Below, one piece after another: positions 4,426 to 62,837 of a stretch of 64,000 nucleotides of DNA. The stretch is taken from positions 310,001-374,000 of the forward strand of contig NZ_JAHHUL010000001.1 in NCBI RefSeq assembly GCF_019008365.1. Reading direction: 5' to 3'. A program made the position numbers and the translations under genes. Source of the stretch: Phosphitispora fastidiosa. Its GTDB lineage: Bacteria > Bacillota > Thermincolia > Thermincolales > UBA2595. Within the stretch, counting starts at the first letter, position 1, and the number at the start of each line of letters is the position of its first letter. The notes beneath the pieces are model-generated. The model was given only the letters and a program-made list of their open reading frames with translations, made no database searches and was not told the DNA's origin.

Positions 4426-4632
4426 TCAGCCAAACATTGAGCCAGACCCGCACCCGGAGTCACACGAAGTTTTTCCCGGCGAGCCTTTAACCGTAACAGA
4501 AAATGGCGTCAAGACCTGTTTGACATTTGAAGTCCCACAGTCAGGGCACCTTACCTTATCTCTTTCGCTTATCGATACCCTGACGGTAAATTGACTGTCA
4601 CAGCTCTTGCACCTGAAATCATAAGCCGGCAT
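4426..4632 (-). CDS. FmdB-family zinc ribbon protein
   Basis: This 68-residue protein starts MPAYDFRCKSC, the hallmark of the FmdB/CxxC_CxxC_SSSS regulatory family. Zinc ligands are CKSC and CPDC. The C-terminal tail is Gly/Ser/Cys rich (SCDSGCGSGSMFG). Members are small putative regulators, first described next to formamidase or amidase genes, and most have no known function. The gene is monocistronic, between the response regulator and the selenoprotein candidate. The length is normal for the family. Confidence 0.85.
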   Translation of the reverse strand: MPAYDFRCKSCDSQFTVRVSISERDKVRCPDCGTSNVKQVLTPFSVTVKGSPGKTSCDSGCGSGSMFG

Positions 4633-4711: not shown

Positions 4712-5050
4712 TCAGGCCACCGGCATAATCCCCTTTTTGTCCAGCTCCTTTACCAGGTAGCTGTATGAGATACTGCCCATCCACAATGGTATGCCATCAA
4801 CAGCAACCAGGGGCAGAGAAGAAACCGGTTTTTCTTTTATAACTGCCCGGGCCCGGGGATATCCTGCCATCTCCTCTTTGTCCTGAATATCAATATACTG
4901 TATGGATACCTGTTGGCCATACTTTGTGTTTAAAATCTCCCGAAAAAGCGCCGTGATCTCCTCCTGAGACCGTGATGACCCTCAACCGCCGCCAGAACAG
5001 CTATCAAACAGCCGGGACCCAAATACCTGAATTTTTACCTTTTGACTCAT
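4712..5050 (-). CDS. Candidate selenoprotein: thioredoxin-like protein with in-frame TGA (Sec23)
   Basis: Reading through a TGA at 4984-4982 gives 112 residues. The opening strand MSQKVKIQVFG is followed by a redox loop DSCSGGG-U-GSS (Cys18, Sec23), a helix, the strand VSIQYIDIQ, a cis-Pro-like SSLPLVAVDG and a C-terminal helix, which together match a thioredoxin-like fold. Several lines argue against a random stop. The frame is open and protein-like on both sides. The TGA sits exactly where a redox Cys is expected, after CxGGG. A 6-bp hairpin with a 5-nt loop starts 16 nt behind it. The start overlaps the upstream stop as TAATG. The gene ends with a second, ordinary TGA at 4714-4712. A gene caller would miss or truncate it. 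A pseudogene or sequencing error remains possible; selenium genes are not in this window. Confidence 0.72.
4955..4971 (-). promoter_or_regulatory. SECIS-like hairpin behind the in-frame TGA
   Basis: On the minus strand, arms GGTCTC and GAGATC form 6 bp (one G-U) closing the loop AGGAG. The loop begins 16 nt after the TGA and has G in its first two positions. Both properties meet the published bacterial SECIS consensus (16-37 nt spacing, short apical loop with an early G). The lower stem is weak. The structure was derived by eye. Confidence 0.55.
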
Positions 5051-5247
5051 TAAGCGCCACCTCCCTGCTTCAGAACCCGTGGGGATCCCACATCTTTATG
5101 AGAGCGGAGTTTCCGAAGGTTCTCAATCTCATCTTCAATTCTTTCCATTTCCTCAATCATCTGCGGCTTAACCGAATGTGCAGGCCACCTCTGTTTCAGA
5201 TCTCTCAATTGGTTTTCCAGTTCTGCCAGCTTTTTATCATCATCCAT
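5050..5247 (-). CDS. Small helical protein of unknown function
   Basis: This 65-residue protein starts at ATG 5247 (MDDDKKLAELEN), 8 nt after the ferredoxin stop. It is nearly all charged helix: an N-terminal helix LAELENQLRDLKQR, a conserved-looking turn RWPAHSVKP, then a second helix MIEEMERIEDEIENLRKL, ending in a basic/Gly tail. This suggests a coiled-coil hairpin or adaptor. A longer frame open to 5316 would overlap the ferredoxin gene and is not supported. Its stop shares a base with the start of the selenoprotein candidate (TAATG), so the two are probably co-translated. No function is known to me. Confidence 0.65.
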   Translation of the reverse strand: MDDDKKLAELENQLRDLKQRWPAHSVKPQMIEEMERIEDEIENLRKLRSHKDVGSPRVLKQGGGA

Positions 5248-5255
5248 AATTGTTT

Positions 5256-5459
5256 TCAAACCATAATCACAGCCTTTGAAGGGCAATGTGTTATACATTT
5301 GCCACAGCCCTGGCAAAAGGAATTAATGTAATATGGTTCATCTGGTTCTTCCTGCTCAATGGCCTTGGCAGGACAAGCCTCACGCGCCATGCACGACCTG
5401 CATATTTTACATCTGTCCGGGATTACTACCGCTCTTTTCTCCATCATTATCATTCCCAT
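5256..5459 (-). CDS. Two-cluster 4Fe-4S ferredoxin-like protein
   Basis: This 67-residue protein carries two cysteine sets. The first, CKICRSCMAREACP, has spacing C-x2-C-x2-C-x5-C and so a longer last gap than usual. The second is the standard CQGCGKCITHCP. Each should bind one [4Fe-4S] cluster, giving a small electron carrier. The start is uncertain: ATG 5459 or the in-frame ATGs a few codons later. It leads a three-gene set (ferredoxin, helical protein, thioredoxin-like selenoprotein candidate) with spacings of 8 and -1 nt. This suggests that the ferredoxin delivers electrons to, or senses redox state with, the thioredoxin-like partner. That link is inference. Confidence 0.8.
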   Translation of the reverse strand: MGMIMMEKRAVVIPDRCKICRSCMAREACPAKAIEQEEPDEPYYINSFCQGCGKCITHCPSKAVIMV

Positions 5460-5626: not shown

Positions 5627-6550
5627 TTACTTCAAGTATTCGATATACTCTTCAGCTGACACTGCAGCCACGGCTCCGTCAGCGACGGCTGTGACCACCT
5701 GACGCAGCGGCGTCTGGCGTACGTCACCTGCCGCGAACACTCCCTGCCGGGATGTCTGCATCTTGGCATCAGTAATGATGTAACCCCGTTCATCGGTATC
5801 TACAAAGCCCTTAAAAAGCTCTGTTGAAGGATCTTTACCGATGTATACAAAGACCCCGTCAACAGCAACGGCTTTTTCCTCACCGGACTTAATATTTTTT
5901 ACCTTTACAGCTTCAACCTGTTCATTCCCCATCACATTTGTGACCACAGAATCCAGGATAAATTCTATCCGGTCATTAGACTGGGCTTTTTCCTGCAGTA
6001 CCTTGGTAGCCCTGAGCTCATCCCTGCGGTGAATGATATAAACCTTCTCCGCGAATTTTGTCAGGTATATGGCTTCCTGAACTGAGGAATCCCCTCCGCC
6101 GACCACCGCTACTTTTTTCCCCTGGAAAAACGCCCCGTCACAGGTGGCGCAGTATGACACCCCGCGTCCCCGGAACTCTTCCTCCCCGGGAATACCCAGG
6201 GGTCTGGAAAGCGCCCCTGCTGCAATTATTACTGTTTTGGTGGTCAGGTCCCCATCAGAAGTCTTTACCTGATACCCCCCGGCAGGCATCTCGGCAACTG
6301 ACAGCACATCGGTAAATTTGGGCTCAACCCCAAAACGTCTGGCCTGAATATCCATATTCATCACCAAATCGGGACCGGGTATCCCTTCAGGAAATCCCGG
6401 GTAGTTTTCAATCATATCAGTTGTGGAAGCTTGGCCTCCCGGCATCCCCCGCTCTATCAGAACGGTTTTCAGTTTCGCTCTGGCTGCATAAAGACCTGCC
6501 GACAAGCCCGCCGGCCCGCCGCCAATAATTACTGCATCATAATCATTCAT
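5627..6550 (-). CDS. trxB: Thioredoxin-disulfide reductase
   Basis: This 307-residue flavoprotein of the low-molecular-weight TrxR family transfers electrons from NADPH through FAD and a disulfide to thioredoxin. FAD binding: GGGPAGLSAG near residue 10. Redox centre: CATC near 134. Nucleotide binding: GGGDSS near 153, followed by HRRDELRA, the basic patch of NADPH-type enzymes. The C-terminal FAD motif is FAAGDVR. The length is standard. The ferredoxin/selenoprotein-candidate set lies downstream on the same strand, 168 bp away behind a palindrome, which suggests a functional redox neighbourhood although possibly a separate transcript. Confidence 0.95.
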   Translation of the reverse strand: MNDYDAVIIGGGPAGLSAGLYAARAKLKTVLIERGMPGGQASTTDMIENYPGFPEGIPGPDLVMNMDIQARRFGVEPKFTDVLSVAEMPAGGYQVKTSDGDLTTKTVIIAAGALSRPLGIPGEEEFRGRGVSYCATCDGAFFQGKKVAVVGGGDSSVQEAIYLTKFAEKVYIIHRRDELRATKVLQEKAQSNDRIEFILDSVVTNVMGNEQVEAVKVKNIKSGEEKAVAVDGVFVYIGKDPSTELFKGFVDTDERGYIITDAKMQTSRQGVFAAGDVRQTPLRQVVTAVADGAVAAVSAEEYIEYLK

Positions 6551-6570
6551 AATGTCACACTCCTGTCCTG

Positions 6571-7611
6571 TTATTTGTTATAGCAAAGGTTTTGAACCTT
6601 TATGGTCACTTTATACCGGTTCTCTCCGGTGTTTTGGTAAAACTCGGTTTGTGGAGCCCTGTCCATGACCTCAGCTTCTTTATACTTATCATTTAATATT
6701 TTTAGAGCTGTAGGTACATCTGTCTCCAAAAATTTTATTGCATCCCCCGGTACAGCCTGAGCCACCTTCCACAGGTCAGCAGCAATGATACAACCAATCT
6801 GAGGATATCCTCCGGTGGATTGGGCATCATGCATCAGAATAACCGGTTTCCCTGTCGGCAGCACCTGGATACTGCCAGGAGTTACCGGAAAGGACTCTGT
6901 CAATGCCTCTGTCCGGGAAACAACTAGATTGTTACCCTCCAGACGGCAGCCCATCCTGTCGGACTGCCCGGTTACCATATATTCTGTGTCAAATAGTTTA
7001 CGGTATACTAATTCTGAAAATAGGCCCCGGTCAATACCGGGTACAGCCCTGACGGTAATTCTACCGGCATATACAGGTCGTCTGTTTACAGGATATCTTT
7101 TTCCAAGCATGTTTTCAAGGGATAATTTTTCGATTTCAGGACCGTTTCTAACCGGTAAGCAGTCCCCTTTTGCCAGGAGCCGCCCACCGTGGCCGCCAAA
7201 TCCCCCGGTCAAAAAGGTGGACCGGCTTCCCATAACAGGCGCAGTATCAATTCCACCGGCAAATGCCAGGTAAGTCCGGCACCCCTTCCTGCGATAACCA
7301 AAACTAAGCAGATCACCCGCACTGCAGAGAAAACTTTCCCACATGGGGGCTTTCCTGCCGAATATCCTGGGACTCATGTCTGCACCTGTCATGGCAACAA
7401 TACAATCTTTGCTAAATAACAGACCGGGGCCTGCCAGGGTCATCTCCAGGCAAGCCGCACCAGGCTCATTACCCACAAGTCGATTGGCAGTAATCAGAGC
7501 CCAACAATCGGCTGCACCGGAAACCGGTACCCCCAGATGTCTATATCCAAACCTGCCCAGGTCCTGAACTGTCGTCAGGAATCCCCGGTGAATTACTTTA
7601 GCAGCAAACAT
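6571..7611 (-). CDS. pxpC: 5-oxoprolinase subunit C (KipA/PxpC family)
   Basis: This protein of about 346 residues belongs to the biotin-dependent carboxyltransferase-like/allophanate hydrolase subunit 2 family. Visible marks are TTVQDLGRFGYRHLGVPVSGAAD at the N-terminus and the late segment DAQSTGGYPQIG with its Gly-Gly-Tyr turn. With PxpA and PxpB it forms the ATP-dependent 5-oxoprolinase that opens 5-oxoproline to glutamate. The start is ATG 7611, two bases after the pxpA stop, preceded by GGGTGG; the frame is open to 7650 but the extra residues are not family-like. The order pxpB-pxpA-pxpC on one strand with near-zero spacing supports an operon. KipA-type sporulation control in Bacillus is a related alternative. 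Confidence 0.88.
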   Translation of the reverse strand: MFAAKVIHRGFLTTVQDLGRFGYRHLGVPVSGAADCWALITANRLVGNEPGAACLEMTLAGPGLLFSKDCIVAMTGADMSPRIFGRKAPMWESFLCSAGDLLSFGYRRKGCRTYLAFAGGIDTAPVMGSRSTFLTGGFGGHGGRLLAKGDCLPVRNGPEIEKLSLENMLGKRYPVNRRPVYAGRITVRAVPGIDRGLFSELVYRKLFDTEYMVTGQSDRMGCRLEGNNLVVSRTEALTESFPVTPGSIQVLPTGKPVILMHDAQSTGGYPQIGCIIAADLWKVAQAVPGDAIKFLETDVPTALKILNDKYKEAEVMDRAPQTEFYQNTGENRYKVTIKVQNLCYNK

Positions 7612-62595: not shown

Positions 62596-62625
62596 AATAA
62601 TATACTTTCAAACAAAAAAATATCC

Positions 62626-62785
62626 CAAAGGTTATTGGTGCCTCTAATGAGGAGAATAGGGAATTGGGTGAAAATCCCAAGCGGTCCCGCCACTGTAAGT
62701 GTTAGCATGCCTTCAACAGACCACTCGAGTTTTTCGGGGAAGGTGAAAAGCATGTGATGATCACAAGCCAGGAGACCTGCCATAG
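62626..62785 (+). promoter_or_regulatory. Cobalamin (B12) riboswitch
   Basis: The aptamer shows the expected series: GGTGCC near 62638, GAGAATAGGGAA, AAAATCCCAAGCGGTCCCGCC (62670-62691), CACTGTAAG, then GATGATCACAAGCCAGGAGACC at 62756-62777, which includes the B12 box. It should bind adenosylcobalamin or another cobamide and control cobT by the terminator at 62838. Confidence 0.92.
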
Positions 62786-62837
62786 CCGTCATATTGCTGC
62801 ATCTCGTGGAATGATGCAGGTATTGGTGAATGATGGC

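Follow-up and report, generated by a model that had tools for sequence, protein, structure and literature searches.

A putative selenoprotein family on an ArsD/DUF1462-like fold, traced from an in-frame TGA in Phosphitispora fastidiosa

Within the stretch of DNA analysed here (the window; 64,000 nucleotides of Phosphitispora fastidiosa), the minus-strand frame 5050-4712 has one internal TGA, codon 23, which directly follows the motif CSGGG, and is closed by a second TGA as its terminal stop. This raises the question of whether the internal TGA ends a short gene or is read as selenocysteine (Sec) within a longer one and, in the latter case, which function the product could have. The two features concerned are:

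4712..5050, minus strand: predicted selenoprotein gene, 112 codons, with Cys18-x4-Sec23 and cis-Pro80 (assigned from the translation, TGA/Cys homologues, dN/dS and an AlphaFold model)
4982..4984, minus strand: in-frame TGA, codon 23, interpreted as selenocysteine (from TGA conservation in the class, Cys in relatives and the alignment with ArsD Cys18)

The translation, MSQKVKIQVFGSRLFDSCSGGG-U-GSSRSQEEITALF...SSLPLVAVDG...KGIMPVA up to the terminal stop, agrees with the sequence-only reading of the locus, which had described 112 codons with one internal TGA at 4984-4982. The start ATG overlaps the stop codon of a small upstream gene as TAATG, the coupling that had also been pointed out, and is preceded by the ribosome-binding site AGGGAGG. 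Under the standard code (table 11), the sole listed open reading frame at this locus is a C-terminal one of 52 amino acids (4712-4870), as anticipated by the earlier remark that a gene caller would split the gene. Protein-like coding had been proposed for either side of the TGA, and in a comparison within the genus dN is indeed well below dS on both sides; as this holds for both halves of the gene, one protein is under selection. The frame 5050-4712 almost certainly represents a single gene coding for one selenoprotein of thioredoxin fold.

A search of ten genomes of the window's class gave 12 matches in eight of them, each with one in-frame TGA (12/12). The search was extended to 398 genomes, all of the window's own phylum, and a match was present in 66. 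From these phylum genomes, 73 classifiable relatives were extracted; in 41 of them the N-terminal redox motif contains a TGA, and the other 32 have Cys. Homologues with Cys at the TGA position, which the sequence-only reading had suggested looking for, are exemplified by L043 (CFSGGCGP) and by ArsD (CSTGVCGP). The retention of the TGA in all 12 class matches and in many phylum members excludes chance, and its retention in independent genomes excludes a sequencing error. Across 71 sequences, P80 is invariant, consistent with the cis-Pro pattern noted earlier, and C18, C/U23, D54 and G92 each reach at least 90% conservation. A relative on public contigs, with 87% identity, belongs to a Thermincola ferriacetica MAG, the only match in the scan of public genome contigs, and tblastn against plasmids returned just weak matches in methylase genes. 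The family tree is poorly resolved; among its 16 changes between Sec and Cys labels, at least eight are required by well-supported branches for the Cys label. One sequence with a flagged internal TAG (L049, genome G097) was considered as a possible case of UAG-coded Sec and was dropped, its N-terminal half being missing. The window's genome contains a second family member with an in-frame TGA, CRRTGUGPVQSQAETV (G000:C7:117534-117857; L025, L117), adjoined by QueD- and QueC-like genes; L119 and L120 show these neighbours as well.

The whole set for Sec synthesis and insertion (selA, selB, selD and tRNA-Sec), likewise named earlier as a point to check, is found in the window's genome. It comprises a tRNA-Sec with anticodon TCA (75.5 bits), SelA (642 bits), SelB (365 bits) and two copies of SelD, all of them over their cut-offs. 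In addition, a formate dehydrogenase with an in-frame TGA (ARI-U-HSS) adjoins selB. The SelD genes are:

G000:C26:20485-21408 (L100): SelD, with an in-frame TGA
G000:C20:1291-2208 (L101): SelD, with an in-frame TGA

Among the matched genomes, a SelA match is present in 34 of 35 genomes with the TGA form versus 17 of 21 Cys-only genomes, a difference that is only suggestive (Fisher p = 0.06). The one TGA-form genome with SelB and no SelA match (G330; member L083, G330:C19:19106-19396) is a point against the Sec reading and reflects either an assembly gap or a divergent route of Sec synthesis.

Downstream of the TGA, the following element was found:

4955..4971, minus strand: SECIS-type hairpin GGTCTC[AGGAG]GAGATC, fitting the bSECIS constraints, conserved and covarying in the family

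The published bSECIS model specifies a loop of 3-9 nt, a stem of 4-16 bp, a G in the first two loop positions, a distance of 16-37 nt from the UGA and an MFE of -7.5 or below (PMC13188914); these constraints were coded and applied to the family members. The window hairpin satisfies them with its loop AGGAG, a stem of 6 bp (GGTCTC/GAGATC, including one G-U pair), a spacing of 16 nt and a regional MFE of -11.2 kcal/mol. The sequence-only reading had let the stem begin 16 nt after the TGA; this is the distance of the loop, whereas the stem begins at 10 nt. Its statement that the published spacing is kept holds, with the loop at the lower limit of the 16-37 nt range. Taken on its own sequence, the window hairpin is not significant, either against dinucleotide shuffles (z = -0.07) or against synonymous recodings (p = 0.14). 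Its evidential weight comes from its conservation in the family.

Whereas 80% of the Sec members have a bSECIS-type hairpin of -5 kcal/mol or below, the figure is 12% for the Cys members and 7.6% for the TGA triplets occurring anywhere in the window; these and the following counts are not independent, since family members are related. In 29 distinct C-x(n)-U members, the pairing fraction is 0.82 in register versus 0.34-0.48 when slid by 1-3 nt, and the outer stem pairs vary with compensation (at pair 5, GC in 10, AT in 10 and GT in 4). The GG of the loop is kept in nearly all members having the hairpin at the 16-nt place. All 13 cases of the Ser codon within the stem are TCT, a codon that accounts for 62 of the 295 Ser codons (21%) of the same genes overall. 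Relative to synonymous recodings, the stability of the region 3' of the TGA has a mean z of -1.13 in Sec members and 0.01 in Cys members. Two members (L037 and L039) contain a different hairpin, at 30 nt, instead of the 16-nt one, L024 has none that fits the bSECIS model, and an Rfam scan of the 64-kb window returned no SECIS family match. The hairpin, with its loop 16 nt downstream, would direct SelB and its Sec-tRNA-Sec to insert selenocysteine at the UGA of codon 23. Sec insertion at codon 23, which the sequence-only reading had already proposed, is nearly certain to judge by the TGA/Cys homologues, the hairpin of most Sec members and the Sec machinery.

The AlphaFold model of the protein is confident (mean pLDDT 88.8) apart from the surroundings of the redox loop, where the blocks of residues 11-30 score 66-69. 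The nearest solved structure is 1xg8 (DUF1462), with Z 10.0 over 99 residues the best of all compared chains, followed by ArsD structures (Z 8.9) and then thioredoxins (about 7-8). The earlier description as thioredoxin-like is right at the level of the fold; the protein is more exactly DUF1462/ArsD-like, with a CxxxxU motif, and not a classical CxxC thioredoxin. The product is predicted to be small and to have the thioredoxin fold of an ArsD/DUF1462-like superfamily; Cys18-x4-Sec23 would lie on the loop that follows the first strand, and P80 would be the cis-proline.

The gene is surrounded by the following genes:

5627..6550, minus strand: thioredoxin reductase gene trxB, first gene of the cluster (PF07992, 187.9 bits)
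5256..5459, minus strand: small ferredoxin with two 4Fe-4S motifs (Pfam Fer4)
5050..5247, minus strand: small coiled-coil-like protein with RWPAHSVKP, start-stop coupled to the selenoprotein gene (from the sequence)
4426..4632, minus strand: FmdB-type zinc ribbon, downstream (PF09723, 55.1 bits)

The RWPAHSVKP protein has no Pfam match and recurs beside selenoprotein genes of different genomes (L107, L108, L113 and L114). Counting the window's genome, the selenoprotein gene follows trxB in six genomes, which belong to three families; in the other five (G006, G005, G003, G001 and G025), FmdB likewise occurs close to the family gene together with trxB. Several Cys and Sec members are found near ACR3, ArsA or ArsR, and there the Sec often occupies a second place, in an N-terminal GUxC. 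In L122, the order of the ars operon is ArsR, ACR3, ArsD, two ArsA-type ATPases and then the Sec gene (6473-6808); L126 (Sec gene at about 6200-6540) has a similar operon without ACR3. The extra N-terminal Sec of these two members is found in the motifs GUNC and GUGC, and the ArsD encoded beside them is a normal one. The surroundings of L115 and L116 contain CsoR-like and ArsR-like regulators, thioredoxin and OsmC. The links with trxB and with ars operons, like the large family itself, go beyond what the sequence-only reading had noticed. Elsewhere in the window, a cobalamin riboswitch is located at 62618-62798 on the plus strand (112.7 bits).

The best reading of the protein is a selenol/thiol redox protein served by TrxB and built on an ArsD-like metalloid-binding fold, its biochemical role being deduced. 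The C18/U23 pair would form a Se-S bond while reducing a substrate, and the oxidised pair would be re-reduced by the cluster-encoded thioredoxin reductase, which the gene neighbourhood makes the likely electron donor. A redox role together with TrxB has roughly an even chance of being correct. Alternatively, the protein could be a selenium-dependent metallochaperone in which Cys18 and Sec23 hold As(III) or a different soft metal(loid) until its transfer to a pump or an enzyme, with only a secondary part for redox chemistry. In the profile alignment, CSGGGUGSSRSQ is placed on CSTGVCGPSPSQ of ArsD without gaps, so that Sec23 corresponds to ArsD Cys18, Cys18 to Cys13 and Ser17 to Cys12, and the As(III) site of ArsD is formed by exactly these residues, Cys12, Cys13 and Cys18 (PMC4562236). 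The presence of sister members in ars operons with ArsA, ACR3 and ArsR also speaks for metalloid binding. However, ArsD Cys12 is replaced by Ser17, the window's selenoprotein cluster contains no ars gene, and members of the window's clade have trxB as their neighbour; metalloid binding as the main role is less likely than the redox role. The wider idea of a selenium-dependent branch of ArsD-type metallochaperones, which would bind arsenic or another soft metalloid through Sec at two positions of one fold (the ArsD Cys18 site and the additional N-terminal GUxC site of the ars-operon members) and be recycled by thioredoxin reductase, is offered tentatively.

The redox reading and the chaperone reading both take the TGA as Sec. 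It is very improbable that a suppressor tRNA, or one with a changed assignment, inserts a different residue such as Cys or Trp at the UGA. Nothing speaks for it directly, although relatives have Cys at the same position, whereas TGA serves this genome as a normal stop, ending both the selenoprotein gene and the neighbouring FmdB gene, the TGA forms come with a SECIS-type hairpin mostly absent from the Cys forms, and the whole Sec set is present. A sequencing error, a decayed gene or two short genes divided at the TGA, for which the 22-codon stub and the 52-aa frame of standard gene calling could be cited, is already refuted by the conservation of TGA and frame in relatives and has a negligible probability, as assemblies made independently from other species, genera and families show the same TGA, dN stays well below dS on either side and stop-free homologues continue across the full length. 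The identification as a selenoprotein and its assignment to an uncatalogued ArsD/DUF1462-like family are proposed with high confidence on the strength of the sequence comparisons.

The protein would thus belong to an uncatalogued selenoprotein family on an already known fold, with members in related anaerobic bacteria. It is termed uncatalogued because Sec proteins of the ArsD or DUF1462 type have no entry in NCBIfam r20 or in the 2026 catalogue (PMC13188914), which covers 119 prokaryotic selenoprotein families and subfamilies. With NCBIfam r20, the 71 members gave no selenoprotein model at E <= 0.001, just weak ArsD, thioredoxin and glutaredoxin matches. The review with the 2026 catalogue takes in two Haft papers, and no description of one was found in the literature on DUF1462 or on selenoproteins with ArsD, arsenic operons and Thermincola. 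With 41 TGA genes in a 398-genome sample of one phylum, the prokaryotic selenoproteome would gain a widespread family whose TGA genes standard annotation would split. With Sec at a position known as an As(III) ligand, and also within ars operons, a connection between selenium and the handling of metalloids by anaerobes can be put to the test; the family also supplies natural Sec/Cys pairs that share one fold and can be compared.

Among known proteins, selenocysteine thioredoxin (UxxC) and other Trx-fold selenoproteins (PMC13188914) share the thioredoxin fold, the cis-Pro and a UGA with downstream SECIS. As in classical thioredoxin, the predicted cis-Pro (the invariant P80) lies opposite the redox motif; this motif, however, is CSGGGU, i.e., CxxxxU, and differs from the CxxC or UxxC of thioredoxins. 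The nearest catalogued case is that of Brachyspira Sec.1/Sec.2 (PMC5330540), small thioredoxin-fold selenoproteins that are often encoded beside redox genes and in which, as in the window protein, Sec precedes the usual site of the thioredoxin domain. Unlike the window protein, they contain a PF13192 domain with a CXXC of its own; PF13192 scores 12.6 bits against the window protein (E 0.14, cut-off 24.8) and matches 0 of 71 family members at 0.001.

DUF1462/YuzD (PF07315; 1xg8 of Staphylococcus aureus) shares the thioredoxin-type fold, two conserved redox positions and the cis-Pro, and PF07315 picks up 18 of the 71 family members at E <= 0.001, while the window protein, with 17.5 bits, stays under the gathering cut-off of 25. 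YuzD-type members combine CxxC (CASC) with Cys, in contrast to the CxxxxU with Sec of the window protein. ArsD (PF06953; 3mwh, 3kgk) has the same fold, and its profiles score the window protein at 20.9 bits (PF06953, cut-off 27) and 19.8 bits (NCBIfam, cut-off 90). Where ArsD has three As(III)-binding Cys, the window protein has Ser17, Cys18 and Sec23, and whereas ArsD is encoded in ars operons with arsA/arsB, the cluster of the window contains trxB instead.
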